From the NCBI GenBank assembly GCA_029959195.1, contig CP114117.1, positions 372,001 to 436,000 of the forward strand: a DNA stretch of 64,000 nucleotides, in the 5' to 3' direction. Origin of the DNA: Dictyophora rubrovolvata (Eukaryota > Basidiomycota > Agaricomycetes > Phallales > Phallaceae). Positions 1 through 52,728 of this stretch are shown here, one piece after another (positions within the stretch are counted from its first letter, which is position 1; every line of letters begins with the position of its first letter). Made by a program: the position numbers and the translations under genes. Below the pieces are notes generated by a model that did no database searches, was not told where the DNA came from, and worked only from the letters and a program-made list of their open reading frames with translations.

Positions 1-3000
1 TACTTCGTTCTGAATGGACAGGCAGGAATGGGTAAATCATCGGTTGCCCATACTATCGCCGAAATTTTTCGAACACAAAATCGACTTGGTTCATTATTCT
101 GCTTCAGTCGAAACGATAAAGGAAGACTCGATTTCTTGTTCAGCACTATCTCCCGCGATTTGGCAGACAGCGATGTGTCATGGCAGAAAAGTCTGATACA
201 AGTTATCAGAGAGACTGCCATTAGGAAATCTCTTGATCCTACAACGCAATTTAATGAGTTGATTATCAAGCCTTCGAAAGATGCAAGAACAATTGGGCCG
301 GTGGTTATTATCATAGATGCTTTGGACGAAAGTGGAGACCGAACCGAACGCAAAGTCCTTCTTGACTTACTTTTCGAACGAGGTGCGGAACTTCCGGGAA
401 ATTATCGCTTCATAATAACGTCTCGTCCGGAACCTGACATCGAGGAGCGGTACCAACTTCCTACTGTTTTTTGTAAACATATGGCACACGTCAATCCCGA
501 TGATACCCTAAATGATATTCGACAGTTTATATCTCATAAACTCTCTCCTATGGCGAAAATTTTGGACGAAGAACTGAAATCGGATTGGCGTTTATCGTTG
601 GCAGAGAAAGCACAGGGTCTTTTTCAATGGGCCAACCTTGCGTGTCTTTATATAAATCCGGCAGTCAAGATCGGACTTGCCCAACGATTGCGGACTGTGG
701 GTTCCAAATCGACATCTTCAATACAAGAACTTTACCACCAAATCCTTGATACCTTGCCAGAGTTTCAGATTGAGGGCTTTTTCGTTATGTTCCAGACTGT
801 TGTCGGGGCACTAGTCGTTTCGCGAAAGCCACTTACAATTTTGGCCTTGCAAGTTCTTTTCGGACCCGATATTGAGGCCGCCACAGTCAGTGATGTACTA
901 CTACCATTCCATTCCTTGTTCATTGGTGCTGATGAACCCGCGACCCAAATCCGACCACTGCATACCTCACTTTTCGACTTTTTCATGGATGCCGAACAAA
1001 GGCCCGGAACTCCAAATCGGTTTTACATCGATACGTCAGACCAAAGTCTTTTTACTCGTGCATGTCTGCGGCTAATGAACAGAACGCTCCGGTTCAACAT
1101 GTGCGAACTGGCAACCTCACACCTACGCAATCGAGATGTACCAAGCTATGATCTTCGAGTGGCGAAATTCGTTCCGTTGCATTTGTCATATGCATGCTGT
1201 TTCTGGGCAGATCACCTCAAATACTCGAGCTTTAACCCAGATCTTCTGAAAGAGATTCGTCACTTGATGCATGCCAATCTATTATATTTCTTTGAAGCTC
1301 TTAGTCTCTTGGGGAAGGTTGACCATGGTCGTGAGGGGATGCAGATCTTAAAGGATCAGGTTAAAGTACGTGTTTTTTTCATATTATTGATTAACATTCG
1401 CTGAGTGAGATTCATAGGACGAGGACAGTGAATTGGCTGATCAGGCAGCCGATGCGTCGCTCTTTGTATCTGAGTTCGGAGATATGATGACGGAGAGTAC
1501 TCCGCACCTCTATCTTTCCGCCCTCCCATGCACCCCGAATCAATCGTTTATATCCAAACAATTTACTTCTCAGTACCCCCAGCTTCTCAACTTCGATATC
1601 GGAACCCAAGATGGGGACTGGGACAACTTTGGTAGAGGCGGCGACAATACGAACAAGATAGAGTTGCGTGAAATTTGGTTGAAGAGCCAGCACCTTCTTT
1701 TGTTAGTTTCCATCCTTGGTGGGGTGGGTAACTACTTTCAGATCTTGGATATTACCAAAAAGCATAGGCTGAGAGTTAGGATTGGCGAATCGCATGCTGG
1801 TGTCCGCGCGGTTTCCCCTGAAGATAATCACTGGTCTTTAGCTTACGTCGGTTCCGGTGGTCTTTGTCTCTGGGGCATCGATTCTAAAGAAGAGTTTGTC
1901 TTGGATAAATCAGGCCATAATATCACTAAGCTTACATTTTCTACCACTGGAAATCGTCTTATGGGCAGCGATTCAAGAGGAAACATCAAGATATGGGATG
2001 TTCGTACTCGCCGATTGGTCTTTGTCGATAAACTATCGGTTTCAGTTGAATGGGTGAACGCTGTTGCCTTTTCCTCGGTAGATTCTGCCTTTATTGTCGC
2101 ATATACGACATCGAACAACAAGATCGTCATCCAAATCCAGGATTGTGAATCAAGAGCCGTATTGAAGGGTCCCTTTGAATCTTTTACGCCCATTCGGTCC
2201 ATCGTTTCCACTGCTAACGATACACGCATTGTGTGCAGGTCAGCATTACGTCTCGAGATCTTGAATACATCAACGGGAAAAAGCCAGTGTTTTGACACAG
2301 TGGAGTTCAACCTATCTCCGAATCGAAAGTATGCGGCTTGGGTACCCATGGGAGATAAAAATAAAGTCAAATTTTGGGACTTGGATAGGGACACGGCGCT
2401 GGACGGACCTTTGCTTAACTATCGCGTCAACAGATTGGACTTTTCTGCTGACTCAACACGGGTGAGTGTATTATATGGCGCGGATAAGAGAGAAGGACGG
2501 ATTAGTATCTGGGATATTGAAGCCGAACATTCAGTCATGCGGCCATTTCCGTGCACTATGGATTGTTGGCCTTCATTCCCACACATTGCTCTACATGGGG
2601 ATAGCCTTTTCTTGGCCTCTGATGGAGATTTGGGGAAAATGTGGGATTTACGCGTGCTTGAAATTACATCATCTCTATATGACAACCACTTGAATAATTC
2701 GCATTCTGATATGTTACCTGCTCATAATCTGGAGGTTCAGAGGTGTGTCGGTTGTGTAATGGAATCAAGTATTCCACTTGACAATTATTGATTCAGATTA
2801 ATCGAGGAATACAGATCATCAAGCTCTGAGATTACGGAGACGTTAGACTACGCACTGGTTGCATGGAAAAACGCGATATTTTCACGTTTCACGAAGATAA
2901 AGGAAGATGGCTGGGTATTAGGTCCGCGAGAGGAGCTTTTATTCTGGGTCCCAAGAAGGGCGCGAAAGCGTTTGTGGCTTCCGTGTATGACTTATATGAA

Positions 3001-36082: not shown

Positions 36083-37378
36083 CTGAGTGGGCTTCAACTT
36101 GTGTGTTGCACCACCTACTTGTATGTGCTCAGCAATTTGCTTCGCAACATCCACTAACAGTGGTTTGGGATCGGAATAGGATTGGAATAGATTCAGAGAT
36201 TCGGAGGAGACAAGAATAGTTCAAACGAGTATAGCCACGAGTCAGATGACTAGTTTGATTTCAGAACTGAGGAACTAGATACATGATTCAGGGTTATTTA
36301 TACTATGGGAATGTACTAGTTTGTGAGCACTGCTAAAAGTGGTTTAACAATAAAATACAATTCGGATTACAATAAAACAATAAGACTAAAACGGGAATGA
36401 GCAGATTTGGAATACAATAAGTTATTGTATTCTAATTCAGATAATTCGGGTTTAACGGATTACTTCAGAGAAAACATAATCATAACAGATGTGACATAAG
36501 TTTCATAATCTTCGGAGTCATAATTTGGAGTAATATCAGTCAGCGAGTTTATCGGCAGATCTGGATCTTGACAGTCTTGCAGTGCAAAGTGCAACTCTTA
36601 ATCAGTTCATTTCTCACTTCTCTCATCTTCTCAAAACCCAGGCTTCTGCTGCCACTCCTCCTAATCTGTCTCCTTCTATTCCCGAGGCCCCGGCCTCAAA
36701 CCCGACAAGTGATATGAAATCCTCTTGCAACACTCGTCCCTCCATTCCTATAGCCTTTGATGGAGATCACAAAAACAGTCATTCTTTCTGGAACTCAGTC
36801 ACTCTCTATATAAGTGTTTGTGGCAGAGACTTTGCCAACCTTGACACCAAGATCTTATGGGTGCTGTCATACATGAATATAGGTTGTGCTGGTGTATTTG
36901 TGAAAAACCTTCATGCCCAGTACAGCAAAGGAGTTCTCCCTTTCCAAACCTGGGATGAATTTCAACTTTGTTTTTGGTCTAAGTTCTTCCCCGTCACCGA
37001 AGCAGAAGATACCCTAAATCTCCTCCAATCAGGTTATTATGCTCAAGGAGGTCGCACTGTGGACAATTATACCGATGTGTTCCATATTATCATAGAACAA
37101 GCTAGTTTCACTGCTAAGGATGGTCTTGCCATTATGACATATTATCGATCTGGCCTCAACCATGATATCCATGCACAAGTGGGGACCATGATAAACAGAT
37201 CTGACTATGCTGATGCTGAGGGCTGGATCAAAGCCTTGCATCTCTTCGACCAAGCTCACCGCACACATAATGCATTCAATGCTGCAAAATGTTCTGCACA
37301 ACCCCCAATCACTCCATTAATGTCCATACCTATGACACAAGTTAGGCCTAACATTCCCCCACCTTTTCAGAGAACAGC

Positions 37379-37784
37379 TGTCAGGGTATGCTAGCGTCAT
37401 CCCTTTCTTTTCTTCCATTTATCTTCAATTCCTGTCTATTCTATTTATTTCCACATTTCTCGTACTTTATCCCATCCCTTGTTTTCCTCTTTCCTTCCAT
37501 AGTCCTGTTCTTCTCTTCAACGGGCACTGAGCATCCATTCCCATCAGAGCCATGGCCTAGGCCCTGGCTAAAAGTCCGGGACCAGCGCGTATCCGCGCCC
37601 AGTCTATGAACTGAGGGTCGTGTGCAACCTTTGCTGTTTTTCATAGTATATAATTAGTAGCCCTAGAGGAAGGATCCCTAAGTTTGTTCTCTTAGGATCC
37701 CCTCCTTCTAGGTGAGTTAGTATCTTTCCCAAAATATATTTACTTAGAATCCCCTCCCTCTAGTCTGAGTGAGTAGCCCTGACA
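37379..37784 (+). repeat. Solo LTR copy 3 (about 406 bases)
   Basis: Inserted in the gag-like sequence of the gypsy element. Termini TGTCAGGG and CCCTGACA; 5-base target duplication ACAGC (37374-37378 and 37785-37789). Confidence 0.85.
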
Positions 37785-37800
37785 ACAGCGATGACCCCTA

Positions 37801-38157
37801 TGTCAGGGTACACTAGTGTCATCCCCTTATTTTCCTACATTTATCTTCGGTTCTGGTCTATTTTATTTATTTCCATATTTCTTGTATTCTATCTCATCTC
37901 TTGTGTTTCCCTCTCCTTCCATATTCCCATTTTCCCTTCAACAGGTGCTGAGCACCCGTTCTCATCAGAGCCATGGCCTAGGCCCCGGCTAAAAGTCCGG
38001 GATCAGTGCGTATCTACGCCCAGTCCATGAACCAAAGACCACGTGTGGCCTTTGCCATTTTTCATAGTATATAGTTAGTAGCCCTAGAGGAGGGATCCCT
38101 AGGTTTGTTCTCTTAGGATCCCCTCCCTCTAGTCTGAGAGAGTAGCCCTGACAGACA
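37801..38157 (+). repeat. Solo LTR copy 4 (shorter variant)
   Basis: Begins only 16 bases after copy 3. It has one fewer internal unit of the CTTAGGATCCCCTCCCTCTAG type, and its end carries an extra GACA. The target duplication CCCTA is present at 37796-37800 and 38158-38162. Confidence 0.8.
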
Positions 38158-38289
38158 CCCTATGTATGCACCACCTCCTTTTCCACTACCTTGATTCCCC
38201 ATTTCTGCAAACCAACCTGCCCCTGCAAGACCCTCATTTTTGACTCCTGCAGCTCCCGTCATTCAACCTCGAAATGACGTGATGGATGT

Positions 38290-38493
38290 TGTTGAGTTAC
38301 AGTCACAGTGTATATAGTTACATATGCGCACCGCGCCTATTTCCTCACTCGTGTTGAGTACACGTAGTGAGGTACGTTCCTTTTATAGTTTAGCTTTTCT
38401 TTCTATTATTAATTACTGTACCTAGCAATATTCTTTAGGTACACTAATATTCTATCACTCATGTTGAGTACACGTAGTGAGCAATATTCTTTA
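38290..38493 (+). repeat. Left LTR of the copia element
   Basis: 204 bases, TGTTGAG...TTCTTTA. Includes two copies of the short motif GTTGAGTACACGTAGTGAG. Confidence 0.92.
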
Positions 38494-38506
38494 GGTTATG
38501 GGCCCC
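38494..38506 (+). promoter_or_regulatory. Primer binding site of copia type
   Basis: GGTTATGGGCCCC follows the left LTR without a gap. It resembles the site in Drosophila copia that pairs with the anticodon region of initiator methionine tRNA, rather than with a tRNA 3' end. From memory of the family. Confidence 0.6.
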
Positions 38507-41500
38507 ACGTTCCAGTTATTTTAACTGTGTAGCCCGCTAGTTAAAAAACGAAGAAAAAGCTCATACTAGACCAAACCTGACCAAACTGTGTGAAGAGTGA
38601 TGCCATCTGATCCCCCACCCTCTCAGTCATCCTCGACTCAGCCATCTGACCCAAAAAGTGCAAAGCCATTCGAGCCTCCGAACTGGATCAATAAATATCA
38701 GCCCAAGGTGCCTCTACAAGGAGACGAAAATTGGCTGACATGGAGCATGCTGATGAAACAGCTGCTCACGCGTGCTCGTGTCTGGAAAGTTGTCCTTGGC
38801 GAAGAAACAGCACCATCAATGCACTCACCAGACTACGAAAATTGGGAACTCAAAGACGGCTATGTAAGAATAGCCATCACCCACAATGTTGACGAGAAGC
38901 TCATCCTAATGCTTGAAGACATGACTGCGCACGAGATGTGGACCCACCTACGAACGCAGTACCAGCAAGTCGGAACGGGTTCCATCATGATGTGGTTTCG
39001 AAAGCTCAATCGAATTGCAGACGTGTCTACAGATATTACCAAGCATGTAGAAGAGTTCAAAACAACATTGAGATACCTTGTCAATGCCGGTGTCAAATAT
39101 CCCGAGCACATCCAAGCCACGATCCTTTTATCAACTCTTCCAGATAGTGGTGCCGGCCCCGAGTCCTGGATGGGATTTATGTCCACCATGCGAGTGGATG
39201 AATCCACAAAGCTGTCTACAGTAATAGCAGCAATCCTCGAAGAAGCTCGAATCCGCAAAGCGAAGGACCCATCCAAGGCGAATGAGAATGCCATGGCTGC
39301 TCGAGAACGTCTAGCCAAAAGCAGCAGCAAGAAGTTCTGCCAAAACTGCAATAAGGAAGGCCACGATACTTCGAGCTGCTGGGCGAAAGGCGGTGCTAAG
39401 GAAGGTCAGGGTCCGAAGCGAAAGCGCAAGAAAAAGAAGAAGGAAGATGCAAAAGCTGCAGAAGAGTCCAGCAGCGATAGTGATGAGAATACGAACCTGA
39501 TCCAAGAGTCTTGCTTTGTATCCACAACTTCTGTCAATAAATTCCCTGTTACTGCTTCGCATTGCACGTGTGAACTGCCGAAGAATCAATTCGAGAAAGT
39601 GTTTAATACCCTTCAAACTCGCACGATCATCGATTCGGGATCAACCACCCATATCGACAATGACCATCGTAATTTTGATAAGATATCTCCCTCCTCCTCA
39701 AGCCGCATCAATGGCATTGGAGGAAATGGTGTCGAAATTGTTGGCCAAGGAAAATCAAATCGACGAATCAAACTGCCAAATGGCAAACCTGCAAAGCTTA
39801 AACTGAAGAACACCTGCTATGTCCCCAGCATGTCGTTAGGATTAGTATCCGTATCGCGAATGGATGAAGCTGGTTGCTACACCTTGTTTGGGCAAGATAA
39901 GGCTGTATCATTCAAAGCAAACGACAGTGGGAAGCTTATGCAGAATATCCTGAAGAAGGAAGATGTTCAGTTCACTGCGAGCAAAAGATCCGATAGATTA
40001 TATCACCTTGATGAAGCTGTAGACTCTGAAATTGCGAACGTTGCTGAAATACCAAAACTCGAGCAACTGCATCGGAGACTTGGTCACTTGAACTACAACC
40101 ATGTCAAGAAGATCGCTAACAAGGAGATGCTTACCAGTATCAAGCTCAGCAAGAACAATTTAATGAGCACGCCACCTGTTTGTCCCTGCTGTGCAGTTGG
40201 CAAGATCACGCGCGCAACACACCCTCGATCGACAAAATGTGCCGACGAGTATCTTGGTCATGTTTTCTCGGACTTGTGGGGGCCAGCCCCTGTTCAAACC
40301 TCGAAGGGAAGCCGATACATGGTTACCTTCACCGATGACCATACATGTTATGTGTGGGTCTACTTCCTGAGACGTAAGAACAAGGTCTTCAAGGCTTTTA
40401 TTGACTGGAAGCAGAAGGCTGAGAATCTGTCCGGGAAGACCCTAAAAATTTTTCATTCAGATAACGGGACTGAATTCATAAGCAAAACGTGGACCAACTA
40501 CTTTTCGAAGCATGGCATTGCATTTGAATCTTCAGCCCCATATACACCTGAGCAAAACGGCACTGCAGAACGACTGAACGGAACCATAATTGAAAGGGTC
40601 AGAACAGTCCTGTATGACGCTAAGTTGCCGCTTTCACTTTGGGCAGAAGCAGCCGCCTATGTTGCTTACACGAAGAACCGAAACTACACTCAATCCTTAA
40701 GCCAATTCAAGACCCCGGTCGAGATGGTCTCTGGTCTGAAACCCGGAATTTCACGTTTGCATCGATTTGGTTGTGTAGCATATGTGTTAGATGAAAACCC
40801 TCATCGAACCAAGCTCCAGCCAAAAGGAAAGGCCGGAATATTTGTTGGATATTCGACAACGCAGAAGGCTTGGAGAATCTATGATCCTGAAACTCGCAAG
40901 ATCATAACGTCGACAAATGTTATCTTTGATGACAACACCTGTTGGAAAGAACGGTTGGCTGCTGAGGGGGAGTATAGGTATGAAGATTTAAAAATCGACT
41001 TACAAGACAACACCAGCAGCGAACCACTTGAACAGGAAGACCTGTCTGACGATGATCTACCTCATAGATCAACTCCTACCCCTGACGCTCGTGTCATTCC
41101 CAATGTCCACAACATTCCCACTGATCTTGACGTCCATGATGTTCCTGACATCGATGTCCCTGTACCCAATCCTGTACCTCAGGATATTCCGAATCTGCAT
41201 AGAGCACAACGTCAACGTCATGCCGATGTAGATAGAGGGAATATCTTACCAGAAGGATCACAGTGTCGTGCAAAGCAACATGCCAAGGATGTTATTCACA
41301 CGGCCACCCGGAACTTGGGCAGAACCTCTGCAAAACAATATGAGGCCATGCCCGAGGCTCCTCCCAATCCTCCTATAGATCCTCCTGCTGCCGACGAGCA
41401 AGATGTCCCAGATCTCGCTAATGACGTAGAAGAGCCCGACGGAAACGAACCCAATGGCCCTGGTCTCGACCATGCAAACCTTGCATTGCAAGTCATCCCA

Positions 41501-43096
41501 CGAATGTATTCTGAAGCAATGAAGTCTGCAAATCAGTCAGAATGGCTCAGCGCAATGGAAGACGAAATCAGTTCAGTCCAATCTCTTGGTACTTACAAGT
41601 TGGTACCACCTCCTGAAGGTCATGAGGTTATTGGATCGAAATGGGTCTTCAACATCAAGAACGACAATGAAGGGCGTTTACTCAAATATAAGGCCTGCAT
41701 CGTCGCACTTGGATACCATCAGAAGCCCGGTGTTGACTTCAGCGACACCTTCGCCCCTGTTGCCAAGATCGAGTCCATTCACCTACTCTGTGCAATGGCT
41801 GCATCCCTCGACTTCGAGATCCATGTTGTCGATGTCAACTCTGCATTCCTGAACAGCGAACTCCCGAAAGACCAGACCGTGTTCATAAAGCAACCTGAAG
41901 GCTTTGTGGTTAGCGGAAAGGAAGAGTGGGCATGGGAACTGCGAAAGGCACTCTACGGACTTAAACAAGCCGGTCGTCTGTGGTATTTCAAGCTTCATTC
42001 CATCCTGACGACAATGGGCTTCACGTCCTGCAAGTCCAACCCCTGCATATTCTTCCGATATTCATCCAACACGAAAACGATGATCTCTGCACATGTCGAC
42101 GATCTCGCACTCTACTGCTCCACAGTGGCAGAGACAAAGCGTGTCAAGGAACAGCTCTGCGAGCATGTCAAGATCAAGGACCTTGGTGAAATTTCAAAGT
42201 TCCTAGGCATGGAGGTCAGACGCAACCGAAAACAACGAACAATAACATTCACCCACCGTACATACATCAGAAAGATCCTGCGCAAATACAGAATGGAAAA
42301 CTGCCACCCGGTATCAACGCCGTTGGAGACAGGACTGCACCTCAGCTTCACAGATTGTCCATCCGCGAACGATGCTACATCTGACGATCACAAGATGCCA
42401 TACCAGAACGCAGTAGGCACACTGAACTATTGCGCAGTCATGACTCGTCCCGACATTTCATTTGCGGTACAGCGAGTCTCCCAGTTCTGCAAAAATCCTG
42501 GAGAGAAGCACTGGAAAGCCGTCAAACAGATTTTCAGGTACTTGAAGGGGATGACGGACTATGGACTCACATTAGGCGGCACAGACCTCAAGCTCCGTGT
42601 CGACGCATATTCCGACACCAACTTCGCTAACTCTCCGACGGATGGTTGATCCATATCCGGATACGCATTTACTGTCAACAACGCCGGTTGTTTTGCGTGG
42701 TCATCGAAGAAACAAACGGCGACAGCACTGTCAACAGGTGAGGCAGAGTACTACTCTGCAGTACATGCCGGACGCACCATTTACTGGCTGAAGCACCTGC
42801 TCTCGGAACTTGGTTTCGACTCCCGGAAGCCTATAAAACTCTACATCGACAACACTTCGTCAATAAAAATTATTGAGAATGAAGGAGAAGTGTCTGCTCG
42901 CACCAAACACATCCGGCTCGCCTACCACTGGATCCGGGACGCTGTTCGCGAAGGGTATCTGTCTCCGGAACATGTCAGCACTCATGACAACCTATCCGAC
43001 ATCTTTACGAAGGCTTTACCTGCAGTGAAACACAAGGAGATGGCGAGGAGACTGGGAATCAGTCCTATAGACGGCGATGGCGTGACTGAGGGGGAG

Positions 43097-44282: not shown

Positions 44283-44960
44283 AAAGGAATCTCAGGACTT
44301 ATATAGGTTGTGAGTACATTCTATAGGAGGCTATACTAATTAGGAACAATGACATCATTATGTCATCGGAGTGCAAACAAGACTTGGTGAGAGAGAATAA
44401 AACAAAAAAGAAATAAATGATGCTTTACTTAATTTCTAATATTTTTTTGGTGGGGATCCATTAATACATACATAACAGCAATGGAATGCAACTAAGGAGT
44501 TCAATGTGAAGCCTTGAACATTAGATATATACAGAAAGAAATGAGAAAAGGAATAGCTCACCTAAAGAGTTCAAGGCAAAGCCTTGAACCTTTAGGCAAG
44601 TGCGTGACTAAGCTAAAACTATCTACACAGGCACTCGCACTTAGTGGTGCTGTCTGCTGTTTCCAACATCAACTTGCTACTGAATATATTCCATATATTA
44701 TTATTTTGACAGAAGGGAGAATATTTTTCAAAATGGGATTCTGAATATGTATTTCAGATTTGGCCAGAATGGGACAATACGGCCACATAGCAAACGATGG
44801 GAGCATAGCGAGTTCTCACCAGGGACGAGGAACGGAGTAGACTGTAGTACGGTGGACAGAAGTGCCCAGCTCCATTTCCAGGGCTGGAGTGGTGCCAGCC
44901 AGTGCAGGCAGATGGCGCAGTATCTGGATACTGCCCACTGCTATCCTAGCCAGCATCAGA
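44283..44960. other. AT-rich region with two related hairpins
   Basis: No gene supported. Contains two imperfect copies of a hairpin built on AGTTCAA...GCCTTGAAC (about 44491-44526 and 44561-44596), and a GCAGTATC-TG-GATACTGC inverted repeat at 44917-44934. Confidence 0.4.
44561..44596. repeat. 16-bp stem hairpin
   Basis: CCTAAAG, one unpaired A, GTTCAAGGC, loop AAA, GCCTTGAAC, CTTTAGG. Both arms are perfect apart from the bulge. A diverged second copy lies about 70 bases upstream. Confidence 0.6.
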
Positions 44961-44963
44961 AAT

Positions 44964-45100
44964 ACTATATATAGATCTTCAATAGACCTAATAGTATGGC
45001 ATGGATGGCTCAGTCGGATGTCTGCATGTGCCGCTTCGGGAATTCAGTGGATAAACTTGGGTCACCTGTGGGTTCGACGCACACACGCCCTTCTTTTTTT
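44964..45100 (+). ncRNA. tRNA-derived, pol III-like sequence (possible SINE)
   Basis: A box A-like TGGCTCAGTCGG (45006-45017) and a box B-like GGGTTCGACGC (45070-45080) are spaced about 53 bases apart. The unit is preceded by a TATATATA at about 44965 and followed by a T-run (45093-45100) able to stop pol III. The flanks do not form an acceptor stem and the T-stem is imperfect, so it is not a working tRNA gene. A tRNA-derived SINE head or a decayed tRNA is the best reading. Confidence 0.45.
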
Positions 45101-45364
45101 AATGCCAAATCTCTATTACCAAATTTTTTTTACGCATTTTAGCTACATGAAAAAATACCGGACCCAGTGCCTACTATAGGGAATGTAGCCGGCCCCCCCC
45201 CAGCTCTGCTCAGGCTATCCCGGATGCTACTGTAGCAGAATGTGCCCATCAGAGACCAGCTGGCCCCCCCCTATGTGCAGCTACAGATACCTGACAAGCC
45301 ACACCACAGGGCCGGGATTCTCCTGCTACCAGACAGCCTGGGATGGGTGGGGTTGGGGGTGGCC

Positions 45365-45386
45365 TGGTGGTGGTGGTGGTGGTGGT
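45365..45386. repeat. (TGG)n microsatellite
   Basis: About seven TGG units in a G-rich stretch, near C-runs at 45194-45203 and 45265-45272. Confidence 0.7.
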
Positions 45387-45435
45387 CGCGCAGCTGTGGC
45401 TTTTCAAACTCAGCTACCCCCACACCTTGCGCAGA

Positions 45436-47122
45436 ATGCCTAAGCCCACACAAAAGCAGCAGACACATGACAGGAAGATTAGACAGTGTAAGTAGTGCTC
45501 TATGCTGCTACAGGTCTATAGCTAATGGCTATTATTAGTTCTACGCCTACTTTGGGGGCAATCAGCCATTTTTAGTGAGATACTGCAGGGTGAGATTAGT
45601 GTGCAAACATTAGAAAAGGCGAGGGAGCTAGGTAACCAGTACAAGCATGATGTACCTGAAATAAACCAAGTAGGCCCTGTATTTTTTAGACCTTTCCCTG
45701 GCCTACCCATTATCCCAGCTATCCGATCTCTTAGAGCTTCTTCCAATGCTCCCAGATACCAAATTTAAAAATGCCTATAGCCTCTACAAGGCAATTCGAA
45801 ATCGTGCACGGCGAAAGCTATATGACACTCAACGACACTTCGTAAGCCCTATATATTTTCATCTAGGCTATTTAGATTATCTTCATATTTCAGAGGAAGG
45901 GGCTAGGGCTTGGGCAGGCTCCTTTAGATATTGCGATGATGATTTTACAAACTGGGGCTGAGGCCTATGAGCGAGAGCACATGGTACAATCTCCACTGAA
46001 GCGGGGTTTTTTTTTGCGTGAACCAGGTTTAGAATATCTAGTCGTTGAGCCTAGGACTAAGAGTCCTCCGAAATATGCAACTGTCAGAAATAGCCTAGAA
46101 TGGCTGCGAATTCCAGCAGACGAGAGTGCGATTATCTGTAATAGCAAAGGTGGGTAATACAACTATATATATTTATTATCTAAAGTTCTCTGGTTTCAAC
46201 AGGTGCAGTCCAAATGGTTATTTTGCGAAATTTATGCCAGAATGCCGATGTTCTTGGGTTTATCAACTCGACTATTCATGAAGCAGTACAAGACCATAAT
46301 AATGTTTGGGTAAGTGCATTCTTGCATGTTTGGAACTTTGTAAATTTTATTACATACTGTAGCCTCAGCATTCTGGTGACTTAATCCAGGCAGGCTATAA
46401 TGCAGGCTCTTGTGACCCCCCCAGATTTTTTGGACTTATCAACAACCTTCGGAAAAAAGTTAAGGATTTATCTGACGAGACTCATCAGAGCAAGGACTTG
46501 CGAATCATCGGTTCTTTTTCTCTTTTTTGACACCTTATTTGTGCCCATGCTCCAGCTGAGATTGTCAAACATATTACATGCAAACTAGAGGAATCGAGAA
46601 TGCCTGAAATGGCTGGTAGAGATAGCAAAGGTATTTACTATAATTTATCTATCTTTGCATGCTATTAAATTAAAAATAGATACTTCGGGATATAAAATCA
46701 CTATAGCTGGCCAGGATTATATTTTTCCATATGTGAATCGGGGTCCTTCAGAAGGCTATCTCGCTCAAGGATATATATTGTACGCTTGTTTCTACTAAGT
46801 CCTCTGCTTATTTACCTGGTTTAGATCAACCCATACTGATAAATGCTAGGCCGACTATGCATTTGCTTGGCAAACTGGACATACTCAACCGACAAGTAAT
46901 ACACCAACTGGAGGTAATTTCGTAGATGTTACCTTGCAAGTCATTGTTGACTCAAGTCCCGATACTCTTCTAATTTTTGATCCTAGATGTCTTCATGCTA
47001 CAACAATCTCTATACCAGAAATTGAGCGATATGGTTTAGTTATATCATTTTCTACACATATCAAAGCAGCCTTTGATCTCGCAGTTGAAAAAGATAATAC
47101 TAATCAGTCACCTGTATTTTAA
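45436..47122 (+). pseudogene. 2-oxoglutarate/Fe(II) dioxygenase-like gene, probably decayed
   Basis: The start at 45436 (MPKPTQKQQTHDRKIRQ) is supported because exons 45436-45487, 45539-45631, 45690-45841 and the next from 45894 join in frame at GT-AG borders. They give a helical N-terminal region rich in Leu, Lys and Arg. A later exon reads YNAGSCDPPRFFGLINNL. The C-terminal part has features of a double-stranded beta-helix dioxygenase: an HxD-like HTD (about 46830), TPTGGNFVDVTLQ, LLIFDPRCLHATT (second His, about 46995) and ERYGLVISFSTH (Arg that would bind 2-oxoglutarate). It ends at TAA 47120-47122. Such enzymes oxidise nucleic acid bases, proteins or small molecules; a TET/JBP-like role is possible but not shown. 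About one break is apparent. AT-rich compared with neighbouring host genes. Confidence 0.5.
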
Positions 47123-47145
47123 TATATCTAATGTAGCCAGCTAAA

Positions 47146-47457
47146 TCAAGTGTCTTTGTCATCAGTAAAAATAGCAACAAGCCGTAGCTGCTCGGCCTCA
47201 TTCTCACTCTCCTCCTCCTCATCAGTTGCATATATTATAACTGAGATATCGCCATCACCATCTTCACTATCACTAGTATCGCCATCTTTTCCCTCACTGA
47301 CAATATTTTCATCCTCATACTGATCATTGTATTGAATAGCCTGTGGTCGAATGGTATCGCCATTATAAAAAGCTACTAATTGTGAAGCTGGGACAGGAGT
47401 AGATATTAAAGCAACTTCGGGACCTGCATATTCTGAAGGAAGAATTTCAAAAGACAT
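47146..47457 (-). CDS. Small acidic ORF beside the integrase gene
   Basis: 103 residues, starting MSFEILPSEYAGPEVALISTP, with an acidic tail of repeated Asp/Glu (DSEDGDGD, DEEEESENE). It begins a few bases beyond the end of the integrase coding region and ends 24 bases from the dioxygenase stop. It may be a C-terminal tail of the integrase or a separate small protein. No family recognised. Confidence 0.4.
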   Translation of the reverse strand: MSFEILPSEYAGPEVALISTPVPASQLVAFYNGDTIRPQAIQYNDQYEDENIVSEGKDGDTSDSEDGDGDISVIIYATDEEEESENEAEQLRLVAIFTDDKDT

Positions 47458-47463
47458 TTGAAA

Positions 47464-48989
47464 TTACAAGTGGTCGAATAGAGTGGACATATCGAGGAAA
47501 ATATTCCAAAAGTTATGGATTGATACAGATCCATAATTTTGCATGCAAAAAATATCATGTACATGGGAGGCAAATTCAGGTGGAACTAGAATGAGAACTG
47601 GATCATCAGGTGGAGCCTAAAGTTGAGTGACATGGCCAAGTAGATCATCAGATATAGTAATCTAGAAAATTACCCTAATAATAGAATTATACTTAAATTA
47701 TAACGAAACTTACTTTAAAGTCCATAGAATTATTATAACTTTGTGGTTCATGAAATATAAGGTCAGGAATGCCATTTGGCAGAATTTTGTGGGGATCTTT
47801 ACGACGAGCCGACTGGTTGCATTGAATCCGATATATATTGAGTTCAGCTTGGAGCCATGGAATAGCGAGCCATCGCCAAAGTAATCTATAAATATAAACT
47901 AAATTATCAAATTAAATTAATTATTAGATGCTTACTGATGTAAATCATCGAGTGGATTATATAAATCCTGATTAAGACCATAATCCAAGACATCTTCAAA
48001 TCTAGGACTCCAGTGATGACGAAGCTGACTCTATTGTATCTCAGGTTTGATATTACTTTTTTTATACTTAAAATGATGTTGCATTGTCCCTTGTAAAGTC
48101 GGATCAAGAATTTGTCGTATAGTTGTTTGAGAATTTGCTACCCCATAATTTTCTGTCCCGGGATCGCTCTGAGTAAGAAGAGGGATAGCTATATTGGTTC
48201 TAGTATTAGTTATTGATATTTATTAGTATTTAAATTACCTTGCAGCTCTCGTGCAGCCTCCAAGTAATAGCTACAAATTAAACGAGGATCCTTATTTGTC
48301 CACTATATTTTTAACCAGAGTAGTCAACCACTAAATACTTCTGTTCCTAAATGTAGCCATAATCCGAATCGTAACCACTTGTCATACTGATCAATGGCCC
48401 AAATATGATTCACTCCAGCAGCAATGAATGCTCGTCGTCTGAATCTTCTTTGTTTTCGCTGCTGTACTAAATCAGGTACATGAACATGGAACCATTGACG
48501 AATTTGTTCTCTAAGATTAATTATCAGAATGGTGATAATGAGTGAATAGCTACTATACAAACCGAGGTACTTGAATATCATATTCCAGACGAAGGTGATC
48601 TTTGAGGGCTCGCACTCCAATATACTTATATTGTATAAGGATCGCGTGGATCATCTCAGTAAGTTGGGTATCTTGGAGGGTTTTTCTGATTCGTGTAGCT
48701 GAATAAAGCCCCCATTCAGCTCGTCGGCGATGATAGGTATTATAGCTATAATAATTAGATAAATTCCAAGTTATAATTCAAAAAAACAGTAATACCTAAT
48801 TGTATAGCCAGTATCTTTAATTTTATCCTTGATATATTCGATACCTTTCCTGTCACTCAAACTGAGCTTCCAAGCATAAGTAAGATGTTTTCGTAAAAGT
48901 TCATCAGGTACTAATAATCAAGTTCAAAATTTAGTATATTATAGTCAGATGCTCTTACCAGTATTATGCTGATTTTTTTGACGAGGCAT
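47464..48989 (-). mobile_element. DDE integrase-type gene of a fungal mobile element, broken
   Basis: Encodes a DNA integrase/transposase with an RNase H-like core. It starts MPRQKNQHN, has a helical DNA-binding region with an arginine-rich RRFRRRAF, then the core: HIWAIDQYDKWLRFGLWLHLG (first Asp) and LKIWWTNKDPRL, followed by TQSDPGTENYG (second Asp). A family block with RFEDVLDYG, a WLQAELN motif and KILPNGIPDLIF follows, and the tail contains LVPPEF. I know this pattern from Basidiomycota proteins annotated as integrase core domain, which lack reverse transcriptase neighbours. Several introns. About one break. Divergent from the alpha-kinase gene (106 bases between starts). No terminal repeats of the parent element were found. 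Confidence 0.7.
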
Positions 48990-49095
48990 AGAAAATGATA
49001 GGGTTCTGATAACAGAGAGAAAAATTCAGGTATTGTAACCCAAGGTTCTCAACTACCATCTCAGCCCAAACATCTACTATCTTCTGATATATAAT

Positions 49096-51845
49096 ATGTC
49101 TTTATCAGCTGAATTTACCCAACAAAGCGATTTCATATGCTATGGTCATGAAGGCTGCAAAAAATTCACCCCCAGATTTCAGCTTCAAGAAGTAACTAGT
49201 GAAGCGAATCCTAATATCAGCCATTTCGTCTGCATTGACTGCTTCAAATACTATGAGAGGAAAACTGCTGCAGGTAAGAATACATTCTTGGCTATTCATA
49301 TATTCTAACAAATGTTATAGTCAGAAATGCCCAGCTCGTAGGAGACTTTATAATAGAACAAACCAGTGAGATTCGTCAGGGTACGAATCTCGCTCAAAGA
49401 AATCATAATAGTTTTGCTCCATATAATATTTTTTTATTTTTATTTTCTGATAATATCTTTTAAGATGAAGCTGCTCCTCCAGTTCGTACAGTTGGAGCTG
49501 CATTTCCTAACTTGCCTATTCAAGGGTATTCGGCCATTCAAGGACAGTCTATTATACAAGGATCTTCTGCTATTCAAGGACCTTCTATTGCTATACAAGG
49601 GGCAGTTAGACCTCTCCAATACTCTGGCCATATTCCTTCACAGCCTATTGACTATAATGCTATCCATAATCAGCTTTCACAGCAATTTATTGGCCACGAG
49701 GCTCGTTCACTATCGATTTATCGTGAAGCTCCAAGACATAGTTTCATTCTTTGGATTCAATTAACTTATTGGAACGATAGTAAAAGTCCTGGAAAAATAG
49801 CTCCTATCTCAGTAAGTATTACTATATATCTCATACGATTCATACTTATGATTTTCAGTCAGTCATAGAAACCTGTGATGAAGTCGATATTCACATTGGC
49901 TTTTTTGAACTGAAACGACTTGTAATCACAATTATTACACCATGTTTAAGGACATGGCTTAAAGGGTTTATCTTAGATCCTGAAACTCTTGAACTCCGCG
50001 ACAAGGATTATGTTGCGATCAAACAATTTCCTCGTGATGCTCTAGTCCAGTATTTCATAGCCAAGTCTTCTAATAAAGGAGCTATCAAGTACAAACCTAA
50101 AGGTCGTTTCATCTTATATATATTTATATCTCGTGGAACTTTCCTTACCATTGAAGATCATTGGGAACAGGTCGATGAGTACTAGGAAATAGTCTCTTCA
50201 TTGACAGCCACTCATCAAGTCTCGGAATCTCTTGGAGCTTTAAAAAACTATGCTCGTAAACAAAAGGCAAAGGGAAAGGGAAAAGGAAAGGAAGTTACTA
50301 GAAGAGATGAAAATGATAGTGATAATTCCTCTGAATCTATGGACTTTCCTGAGATTTCTGATTTGATAAAAGTACGAATTATATTTTATTTTTGAGAAAT
50401 AAAACTAATCATGCAAATAGATAAAAGGAAAAGAGAAAGCTGTATCTCACAGTAATCTATCAATGGCAGTGACTTCTAAAATGAAACAGCTCTCACCATT
50501 CAAAGTAGGAACAAAACGAAAGGTAAGTTATCAATGAAGAACTATAATTACTAAAACTTATATCTATATCTAATAAAGACGATTGAAGTGAATGACCTTG
50601 ACGAAACTCAACAGACACCCCAACAGCCGACAGCTAGAATCGCTCAACTACTCTCACCTGATTTATTGCTCTTAGATGTAGCATTAAAGAAGCAAGCTGG
50701 GCCAACTGGAGCAGCTATAAAGGCCTCATGTAAGTTATAGATCAATAAGCTATGATAAATAAAATGAAATTCTTCTAGTACCAGTTGGAACTCTTTATCT
50801 TGCAGACATTTATGTTATTCCAAAACGATCGCTACAGGAACTTCTGACCAATCCAGAGCTTACTACTATCAATCTCAATGAAGGGGGTATTGTTGGAACA
50901 TTGGATGTTAACTTTAAAAAAACTATTGGAAAGATGCCAGGATCATTCAAAACAGCACATTTGGGATTCCTTCGACCTAGCTACCCGAGTATCAAAGATG
51001 AGTTTCCTTGGCAAATGAAACTTGCCATCAAACGATTCTTTTATAAGAATTCAAATGTTCTGAATGATACCGATCAGGCTTCAGGTACTAACAAAGGCAA
51101 ACGAGCAAGAACTCAGCGATATGTAATAGGAGCCGAACTTCATGAATTAACCCAAGAAATCCGATATCTTATTTGGAGCGATACATTAATGGACTTCGTT
51201 TACGAATTTATAAAGCAACAGATTAAGACACGAGACATACCCCCTTTTACAATTTCATCGTTTCACTTCATTCATTTTGCCCTGGTATTTGCAAGATCTC
51301 CAGAAAGCCATGCCACTCTTGCTGAAGAATATATTGATGGAAAGTACATGAAGTATATGGATAATCGTCTTCCAATCCCTTTCGATGATATAACTGATCC
51401 TGATGAGCTGCATCGTGCAAATTTCTTGGCATTCGCTCAGCATGTGTAATGGAAGAAAATTGGCTAAAAAGTTTTCATAACTGATTTCCAAGGTATGCAA
51501 GTTGAAAAATATATCAAATATTGATATACTGAAATATTTACAGGAAACGAAAACTTATTAACTGACCCTCAAGTCTTAACTCATCCGTGAGTCTAACCAC
51601 TCGATATAACTTCCCATCTACCTATTAGCTATTACTTTGATTTTAGAGATTTGGGTGGAAATCTTTTTGGCCAGGGAAATATTTCAAATAGCTTTCTGGA
51701 TTTTCCTAAAAAACATGTCTGCAATTACTTTTGTGAGTTTTTCGAACTTGGCGAACCTGAGAACTGCAAGGTTCTGAATTCTGGTCCTTTAGAAGGTATA
51801 GATGGTGAAGAGGAAATAGAGCTGCTAGAAGGTGAGAATGTTTAA
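49096..51845 (+). pseudogene. Alpha-kinase domain protein, decayed
   Basis: Atypical Ser/Thr kinase of the alpha-kinase (MHCK/EF2K-like) class, which is expanded in Agaricomycetes. The N-terminus has a Cys-rich, zinc-finger-like module (FICYGHEGCKKF...HFVCIDCFKYYE, about 49125-49255). A Gln/Ile/Pro-rich repeat region follows (repeats of the AIQG/SIIQG type, about 49515-49600), then a Lys/Gly basic stretch near 50260. The kinase domain shows PGSFKTAHLGFL (about 50940), a lysine in MKLAIKRFF (about 51020), LAEEYIDGKYMKY (about 51330), then ITDFQGNENLLTDPQVLTHP and NLFGQGNIS...HVCNYFCEFF (about 51460-51750), the metal and zinc-binding end of the family. It ends EGENV with TAA at 51843-51845. About three breaks are apparent, so I call it a pseudogene. 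Confidence 0.7.
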
Positions 51846-52728
51846 ATAAACTATATTGTTATTTAGAAACTTATTATTTCGTCTTATTTTTTAAAATACT
51901 TGTCTACTTCATGTGTGTGTGTGTGTGTGTGTGGGGGTGTGGATCTATTAAATCTCTGGGGGCTGAGCCTTATTGTCCACTTCATAATTAATCCTGATAC
52001 TAGAATTTTTTGGAGTTGCTACTTTTTAACTTCTTTGGCCAGTGGGTCCAAATCACTACCTTTATATTTATATGTTTCTTAAGAAATTCCTTTGGTTCTA
52101 TTTGATTCTATTGATAATACAAGCCAGACAGATAACATAAATCCCGAAATGAGTATGATTCTAAGAATATCACAAAATATCCTACAATGCTGAACTTATT
52201 TTAGAATGCTGACCTGATGGCACTGGTCGGCAAGGCTAACCGAAAGTGCCGAAATGAAGCTGGGCACATTTGTCCACCATTCTGTAGCGAATAGCGGCCG
52301 GCGGACATTTTTGACGCCCGGCATGGAAGGGTGAAAAGCTGTGCTGCACACGGACTTTCCGCCGGTTAATGCATTGATATTCATGATAAATACATAAATA
52401 ACTCCTTGCCTCCTTTCTTGTGCGTTTTCTTTTTCTTCTCCCACATTGCCTTTTTTCCAAAATTCGTTTCCTTGCGTTCCGTGGGTTACCTCAGTCTGAT
52501 TTTGGCGTGCGACGGCTTGAAAAGGACGGCTGAATAGTAAGCCACAGTATACGACCAGTTGTGTTAATTCTGCTAATCTACCTTTACCATTGTTTTCTTC
52601 GCATTTGTTGCCATTCAATCAATGTCCCAAAGCAAAGTCTATTTAATTTCTGCAGAACTCGTATTACCCCGCCTAACGACCCACTTCACCCTGCTAACCC
52701 CCCGGCATTCACACGATAATCTATATCC
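51846..52728. other. Intergenic region with (GT)n repeat
   Basis: A (TG)n run of about 20 bases at 51912-51932 followed by a G-run. No gene supported; minus-strand frames at 52196-52618 have no motifs. This stretch is the boundary between the AT-rich block and ordinary genes. Confidence 0.5.

Follow-up and report, generated by a model that had tools for sequence, protein, structure and literature searches.

An IS3EU-type DNA transposon with an alpha-kinase gene and a dioxygenase-like gene, probably represented by a decayed copy in a fungal genome

What kind of unit is the compact, AT-rich block of genes at positions 45436–51845 of a 64,000-nucleotide stretch of fungal DNA (C1:372001–436000, hereafter the window), and do its genes move together? 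A preliminary description had read the block as a dioxygenase, a DDE integrase, a small acidic open reading frame (ORF) and an alpha-kinase, perhaps forming a mobile unit whose cargo would be a modifying enzyme and a signalling kinase. We analysed the window together with the genome that contains it (28.24 Mb in 11 contigs, named C1, C2 and so on), which could itself be searched. The block very probably belongs to a decayed copy of an IS3EU-type DNA transposon, carrying a transposase gene, an alpha-kinase gene and a dioxygenase-like gene; this confidence applies to the transposon identity and the gene content only. The copy spans 44848–52281 (7,434 bp), so that its true ends lie outside the limits of 45436 and 51845 first given for the block. 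Its features are as follows, with exon limits that are models from exon-by-exon comparison among the copies rather than from transcripts.

44842–44847, no strand: left target-site duplication CTGTAG, an exact 6-bp match to 52282–52287, directly outside the inverted repeats
44848–44880, + strand: left terminal inverted repeat, beginning TACGGTGGAC, alignable to both the right end and the TATGGTGTAC... found in the three young copies
45436–47122, + strand: dioxygenase-like gene, eight exons, with the pattern HTD...H...R and two in-frame stops; exon-by-exon matches in the C11 and C6 copies, and in the C3 copy minus the first two exons; homologue on C2
47146–48989, − strand: DDE transposase gene (IS3EU/PF24764 type), eight exons, four in-frame stops; acidic tail at 47146–47463
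49096–51845, + strand: alpha-kinase gene (PF02816), nine exons, three in-frame stops; Cys-containing N-terminal region and C-terminal alpha-kinase domain
52249–52281, − strand: right terminal inverted repeat, beginning AATGGTGGAC read inwards, following the same end rule as the young copies
52282–52287, no strand: right target-site duplication CTGTAG, identical to the left

Boundaries and copies of the element

The main transposase exon of the window is found at four places in the genome, namely the window itself, C11:168326, C3:391572 and C6:250693, and each of them is flanked by an alpha-kinase match, encoded on the opposite strand at a distance of about 3 kb, and on its other side by the dioxygenase-like gene. 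Aligning these complete loci, as the preliminary description had proposed, reveals both shared termini and target-site duplications, and each of the four copies, bearing both ends, holds the same three genes (the C3 dioxygenase-like gene without its first two exons). Three of them are young copies, 95–98.6% identical to one another where aligned, nearly end to end in pairwise alignment; the window copy is about 67–69% identical to them over the main aligned stretches. The C11 copy (C11:164734–172188) measures 7,455 bp, the C3 copy (C3:388663–395472) is reduced to 6,810 bp by a deletion of ~690 bp that takes out the two missing exons, and the C6 copy (C6:246238–254573; 8,336 bp) is broken by an 863-bp repeat also found at C11:1636685.

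Kojima (2025) described IS3EU elements with 6-bp duplications, inverted repeats longer than 30 bp and TAYGG..CCRTA ends (PMC12730594; here and below, comparisons refer to the available parts of the cited papers). Such ends and repeats are found in all three young copies, whose inverted repeats of 30–31 bp (TATGGTGTACATTTCTGGTCAGCTCCAATT) terminate in TATGG...CCATA in every case. The inverted repeats of the window copy are imperfect and about 33 bp long, with TACGG at the left end. Directly outside the ends, duplications of 6 bp are exact in three of the four copies (GTTACT/GTTACT, AATTAG/AATTAG and, in the window, CTGTAG/CTGTAG) and agree at five of six positions in the fourth (GGAACC/GGAACT). 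A single exact six-base match would arise by chance about once in 4,096 cases, and three are present.

Joining the two flanks of the C6 copy gives a sequence that matches window positions 44332–44470 across the junction, where a related, uninterrupted repeat holds AATTAG only once. This related empty site, whose match extends only 12 bp to the left of the junction, 6 of them belonging to the duplication, supports transposition without being decisive. No comparable site was found for the flanks of the other three copies among the loci examined.

A genome search with the end pattern returned nine matches, against none in the control. Seven of these are ends of the four copies, comprising both ends of the C3, C6 and C11 copies and the left end of the window copy, whose right end falls outside the pattern; the others lie at C7:1845932 and C8:1580395. 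Querying the genome with the complete window element as DNA gave 19 matches. Besides the four copies, these comprise two incomplete members of the window subfamily, both on C7, one of the right half (828597–829124 and 829719–832765; 95–96% identical) and one of the left end (1845932–1846932; 94%), and a few stretches of 46–65 bp. The low GC content noticed initially was borne out, with 38.3% in the window element compared with 46.4% and 43.6% in its 5-kb flanks. Since the three other copies have the same low values (38.2–38.7%), AT-richness is a property of the element family.

Inspection by eye also picked out a stretch resembling an RNA polymerase III promoter in the left end (window 45006–45100), with an A-box-like TGGCTCAGTCGG, a B-box-like GGTTCGACGC and a T run, of which a diverged form occurs in a partial C7 copy; ARAGORN detected no tRNA in this left-end stretch. 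An Rfam match to SCARNA7 was rejected, being under the family cut-off and sitting on a GT repeat.

A divergent pair of transposase and alpha-kinase genes

The acidic ORF at 47146–47463, previously counted as a gene of its own, forms the terminal part of the transposase, whose counterparts in C11 and C3 extend as far as the same acidic terminus; the element therefore has three genes, not four. Several Agaricomycotina relatives end in a similar acidic tail, for example FTDDE or FSDDE (F-x-D-D/E type). The tight packing of multi-exon genes was otherwise as reported, the ends of the convergent genes being separated by 23 bases (47122/47146; 24 in the preliminary description) and the starts of the divergent ones by 106 (48989/49096).

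The integrase assignment also held. The transposase matches PF24764 just under the cut-off in the C11 copy (E = 4e-5, 23.8 bits) and more weakly in the window copy (E = 0.015), and the spliced C11 model places the catalytic residues at D146, D205 and E246, with the spacing D-58-D-40-E. Across 13 aligned transposase sequences the last two of these residues are invariant and the first nearly so. The protein has 191 database relatives; among the 120 listed, which are 35–47% identical, 106 carry PF24764, and the 11 that we aligned share the catalytic residues where covered and, in several cases, the acidic tail. Names accompany 118 of the 120, and their genera, as far as recognised, are all ones that we take to belong to Agaricomycotina. 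PF24764, the D-D-E residues and the 11 aligned relatives agree with the IS3/IS481-like DDE transposase without HHCC that characterises IS3EU, the absence of HHCC having been judged by eye. Run over the genome itself, the PF24764 profile found nothing, as it also did in the controls, so that it provides no count of such transposases.

The alpha-kinase likewise proved to be what it had been called. PF02816 scores above its cut-off of 21.3 bits in both the window copy (E = 7.6e-7, 29.8 bits) and the C3 copy (E = 6.3e-16, 59.4 bits), and the C3 kinase domain matches the solved structures of eEF2K (3.5e-8) and a TRP-channel kinase (7.6e-6). By Pfam, the family occurs at no fewer than seven places in the genome, a lower bound, since the kinase portion of the incomplete C7 copy is not among them; four of these lie about 3 kb from the four transposases, and six of the seven are inside IS3EU-like elements with a transposase. 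The seventh (C11:1638412–1639283) is a lone, divergent stretch, 31–41% identical to the window kinase, with no transposase match within 26 kb.

The remaining elements form a second IS3EU-like family, with copies at C4:1953339–1961016 and C6:2281804–2297008, the latter containing nested insertions, and a transposase fragment at C7:2130070. Its inverted repeats are 100 bp long and start with TATGG or TACGG, its duplications in both copies are of 7 bp rather than 6 (CCCCTTC and GAGTGGT), and its alpha-kinase and transposase genes are again divergent. Our searches returned no dioxygenase match in these copies, and about 2 kb past the kinase is without a gene assignment. Comparison of the two families by tblastn gave no match for transposase pieces or for kinase pieces. 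Because a second, diverged family has the same divergent pair, the term cargo is doubtful for the kinase. This suggests that the alpha-kinase is a core partner of the IS3EU transposase. The earlier proposal of a mobile unit is upheld in outline by the gene content of all four loci, the shared termini, the duplications and the related uninterrupted site of one copy.

The dioxygenase-like protein and published elements

The dioxygenase label is based only on a conserved H-x-D...H...R pattern, which is typical of Fe(II)/2-oxoglutarate oxygenases. In the C3 copy the second H follows 54 residues after the first, and the R 11 residues later. H-x-D (as HTD or HSD), H and R are invariant in an alignment of four of the five sequences, which includes a homologue on C2 and leaves out the C11 copy, where a stop falls at the R of the motif. 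A dioxygenase exon used as a genome query gave nine matches at five loci, which are the four element copies and C2. The C2 homologue (C2:2407900–2413999) has no stop in its assigned exons and is 43% identical to the C3 copy, with the motif residues lying within a well conserved stretch. Facing it in convergent orientation is an ORF longer than 1,000 residues, in which a PHD-finger match stays under the cut-off and which looks transposase-like by eye, possibly representing another transposon type. One query from this large ORF gave a single match in the genome, and a search for inverted repeats around the C2 locus revealed no convincing element ends.

Profile searches, which the preliminary description had suggested, placed the alpha-kinase above its cut-off and the integrase under it, and assigned no family to the dioxygenase-like protein in any of four members at E up to 10, Tet_JBP (PF12851) included. 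Searches of the PDB gave implausible matches only (E 0.26 and 0.95; E 0.13 and 0.14) or none. In a collection of 5.8 billion proteins, searched in a way that reaches only relatives sharing exact 5-residue words, none of 4288 candidates matched the gene-model query at E 0.001 and none of 5978 matched the alignment query at E 1. An AlphaFold model of the last dioxygenase exon alone had a pLDDT of 47 and was unusable. We consider it probable that the protein is an oxygenase and about an even chance that it acts on methylated DNA.

A search of the genome with PF12851 returned three weak matches elsewhere (C3:56312, C9:1929097 and C8:1237; E 7e-4 to 3e-3), all under the cut-off and none in these elements; one lies 1.2 kb from its contig start, and a sub-cut-off match also appeared in the E. 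coli control. Among published TET/JBP types, the transposon-borne PE type was recognised by structure only, and the AG type has Gly or Ser 5 and Asp 11 residues past the first metal-binding His (PMC12730594). We rejected the PE type on the presence of HTD or HSD instead of HxE, and did not find the AG (CcTET-like) pattern, since at ungapped offsets position +5 holds Trp, Phe or, in the window copy, a stop, and position +11 Ala or Val. The motif thus sets it apart from these two types; the comparison with the available part of that paper covered PE and AG, not PU.

The combination of genes had seemed undescribed, yet IS3EU elements that carry both a TET/JBP gene (TET+) and an alpha-kinase gene are published (PMC12730594). 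Our element resembles them in its 6-bp duplications, repeats longer than 30 bp, TAYGG..CCRTA ends and putative TET/JBP-like dioxygenase, and its alpha-kinase is oriented opposite to the transposase in four of four copies. In all TET+ IS3EU families of that account, the TET/JBP gene lies between the transposase and alpha-kinase genes, which are oppositely oriented (PMC12730594). In contrast, the dioxygenase-like gene here is found past the 3′ end of the transposase gene, with which it is convergent, again in four of four copies. What is new is this position and a dioxygenase-like protein for which no relatives were found outside the genome. The hosts given for TET+ IS3EU are Pucciniales (rust fungi, the main source) and Tuber indicum, and the TET+ lineages given for Agaricomycotina are Kyakuja, Zisupton, EnSpm, Plavaka and Helitron2, with no IS3EU in the available list (PMC12730594). 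If the fungus belongs to Agaricomycotina, as its nearest transposase relatives suggest, it would be a new host lineage for such IS3EU elements. An open-licence literature search returned, among the papers listed, only PMC12730594 as joining 'alpha-kinase' and 'IS3EU', and no other paper on such an element.

A general account of IS3EU/GingerRoot gives TA..TA termini and usually 6-bp duplications, as in the window family; a kinase goes unmentioned there, and the second family differs in its 7-bp duplications (PMC10045372). The link to KDZ elements (Kyakuja, Dileera, Zisupton) made initially was not sustained: these also combine a TET/JBP dioxygenase with a DNA transposon, but have duplications of 7–8 bp and other transposases (PMC12730594), and we rejected them on the 6-bp duplications and on PF24764 in place of a KDZ transposase. 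The window element was also compared with a further class. Polintons (Mavericks) have 6-bp duplications, long inverted repeats, and polymerase B and capsid genes. This class was rejected, as only the 6-bp duplication is held in common, the inverted repeats here being ~31 bp and the three genes filling most of the element; no profile search aimed at polymerase or capsid genes was made.

Selection, decay and competing explanations

Comparison of the window copy with the young copies gave ratios of non-synonymous to synonymous substitution (dN/dS) of 0.15–0.19 for the dioxygenase-like gene, 0.093–0.097 for the transposase core, 0.22–0.26 for the kinase domain and 0.28 for the N-terminal part of the kinase, none of these four having a bootstrap upper limit above 0.40; the acidic tail has diverged too far for such a judgement. 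The four estimates are rough and the same in sign. Among the young copies, the lowest dN/dS values, about 0.3, belong to the kinase domain in the two pairs that include C6, and others reach up to 1.8 or are unbounded, as expected for decaying copies. In-frame stops in the dioxygenase-like, transposase and kinase genes, counted from one match per exon and therefore lower bounds, number at least 2, 4 and 3 in the window copy, 2, 2 and 6 in C11, 0, 3 and 1 in C3, and 1, 8 and 3 in C6.

The differences between young copies are dominated by transitions, with a transition-to-transversion count of 239:6 over 7,416 bases for C11 against C6, and 226:61 and 235:59 in the pairs with C3. Per cytosine, C-to-T changes affect 110 of 260 CpG, 88 of 866 CpA, 47 of 550 CpC and 26 of 930 CpT sites. 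The genome has six DNA methylase profile matches. This decay would fit methylation-linked decay of repeats, either resembling repeat-induced point mutation (RIP) or by deamination. The second family shows a similar transition bias (288:5 over 7,594 bases), and the dioxygenase-like gene has therefore not visibly spared the first family.

We propose that the DDE transposase would bind the ends, cut the element out and insert it at staggered cuts 6 bp apart. The alpha-kinase would act as a regular partner of the transposase, and we give roughly equal weight to its phosphorylating, or not, during transposition either the transposase itself or a chromatin or repair protein of the host. The dioxygenase-like protein might oxidise methylated bases, most likely 5-methylcytosine, on the element DNA and so counter CpG-centred C-to-T decay, a role we hold to be an open bet either way. 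Both enzyme functions, kinase and oxygenase, are predictions from sequence. Since the dioxygenase-like gene is found on the far side of the transposase gene, we lean towards an acquisition independent of the one that brought TET genes into rust IS3EU elements. A wider and more speculative idea, which we regard as doubtful, is that the protein belongs to a further, unrecognised type of transposon-borne dioxygenase, neither PE nor AG by motif and undetected among public proteins, which was captured beyond an IS3EU transposase and also by the unrelated transposon type on C2; a methyl-base oxidase would then have been recruited repeatedly, in convergent events, to counter CpG methylation and RIP-like mutation, with the alpha-kinase as an ancient, obligatory IS3EU partner.

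The identity of the dioxygenase-like protein is where another explanation has most room. It may be an element-specific protein of another fold in which H-x-D...H...R is coincidental, and the lack of any database protein among the 4288 and 5978 candidates, of a Pfam family in four members, of a PDB match better than E 0.13 and of a usable one-exon model would all agree with this. Nevertheless, the H-x-D, the later H and the R 11 residues on are invariant between C3 and C2 proteins that are only 43% identical, and published IS3EU elements with an alpha-kinase do carry TET/JBP genes, of which the PE type was recognised by structure only (PMC12730594). We therefore think a coincidental motif possible but not the likelier case. 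That the gene stems from the same acquisition as the rust IS3EU TET gene and later moved within the element is unlikely in our view: superfamily and the three kinds of gene are the same, but position and neighbours differ and no database protein scored, the rust proteins not having been compared directly.

The kinase and dioxygenase-like genes might instead be host-derived cargo, useful to the host and not serving transposition, since low dN/dS by itself is silent on whom genes serve. Both genes are, however, in all four copies with both ends (in C3 the dioxygenase-like gene minus its first two exons), no free-standing host alpha-kinase was seen, with six of seven matches lying in elements with a transposase, and the second family has the kinase as well; we find such cargo improbable. 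Virtually no likelihood attaches to segmental duplication of a host gene cluster, with no transposition, an origin favoured only by the multi-gene, intron-rich make-up. The copies are on four contigs, their similarity is bounded by inverted repeats and bracketed by 6-bp duplications, their flanks have nothing in common except other repeats, and a related uninterrupted site exists.

Several observations weigh against an IS3EU-type transposon carrying functional partner genes. At the level of the element, the right end of the window copy begins with AATGG, one base off the TAYGG pattern, the duplication of the C11 copy has one mismatch, the 23.8-bit PF24764 score stays just under the 26-bit cut-off, and the IS3EU assignment rests on published descriptions rather than on comparison with Repbase IS3EU sequences. 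All four copies with both ends are broken, so that activity is not visible from them. High dS values (about 1.2–2.3) make dN/dS rough, and inestimable for transposase exons 4–6 and most comparisons of the tail. The kinases of the two families have no mutual tblastn match, which allows for independent capture, the dioxygenase identity lacks profile and fold support, and C-to-T decay is no less marked in the family that has the dioxygenase-like gene than in the one that lacks it.

With its ends, duplications, and younger and older copies, the IS3EU-type element provides a bounded example of a transposon with a kinase and a putative DNA-modifying enzyme, and its low dN/dS argues that the genes had a function during the history of the element. 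With six of seven matches here lying in IS3EU-like elements, some of the 'expanded' alpha-kinases of fungi are suggested to be transposon genes. The element also makes it testable whether transposons bearing an oxidase escape methylation-linked C-to-T decay, an advantage not visible in this genome.

Beyond the element, the neighbouring retroelements reported earlier were recovered by eye at window 36534–42646, as a gag-like ORF and an uninterrupted copia-type pol ORF of 1,351 amino acids (38594–42646) with repeats of ~400 bp around them. At the start of the window (1–2788), a NACHT-type NTPase followed by WD40-like repeats, also assigned by eye, resembles an NLR-like gene.

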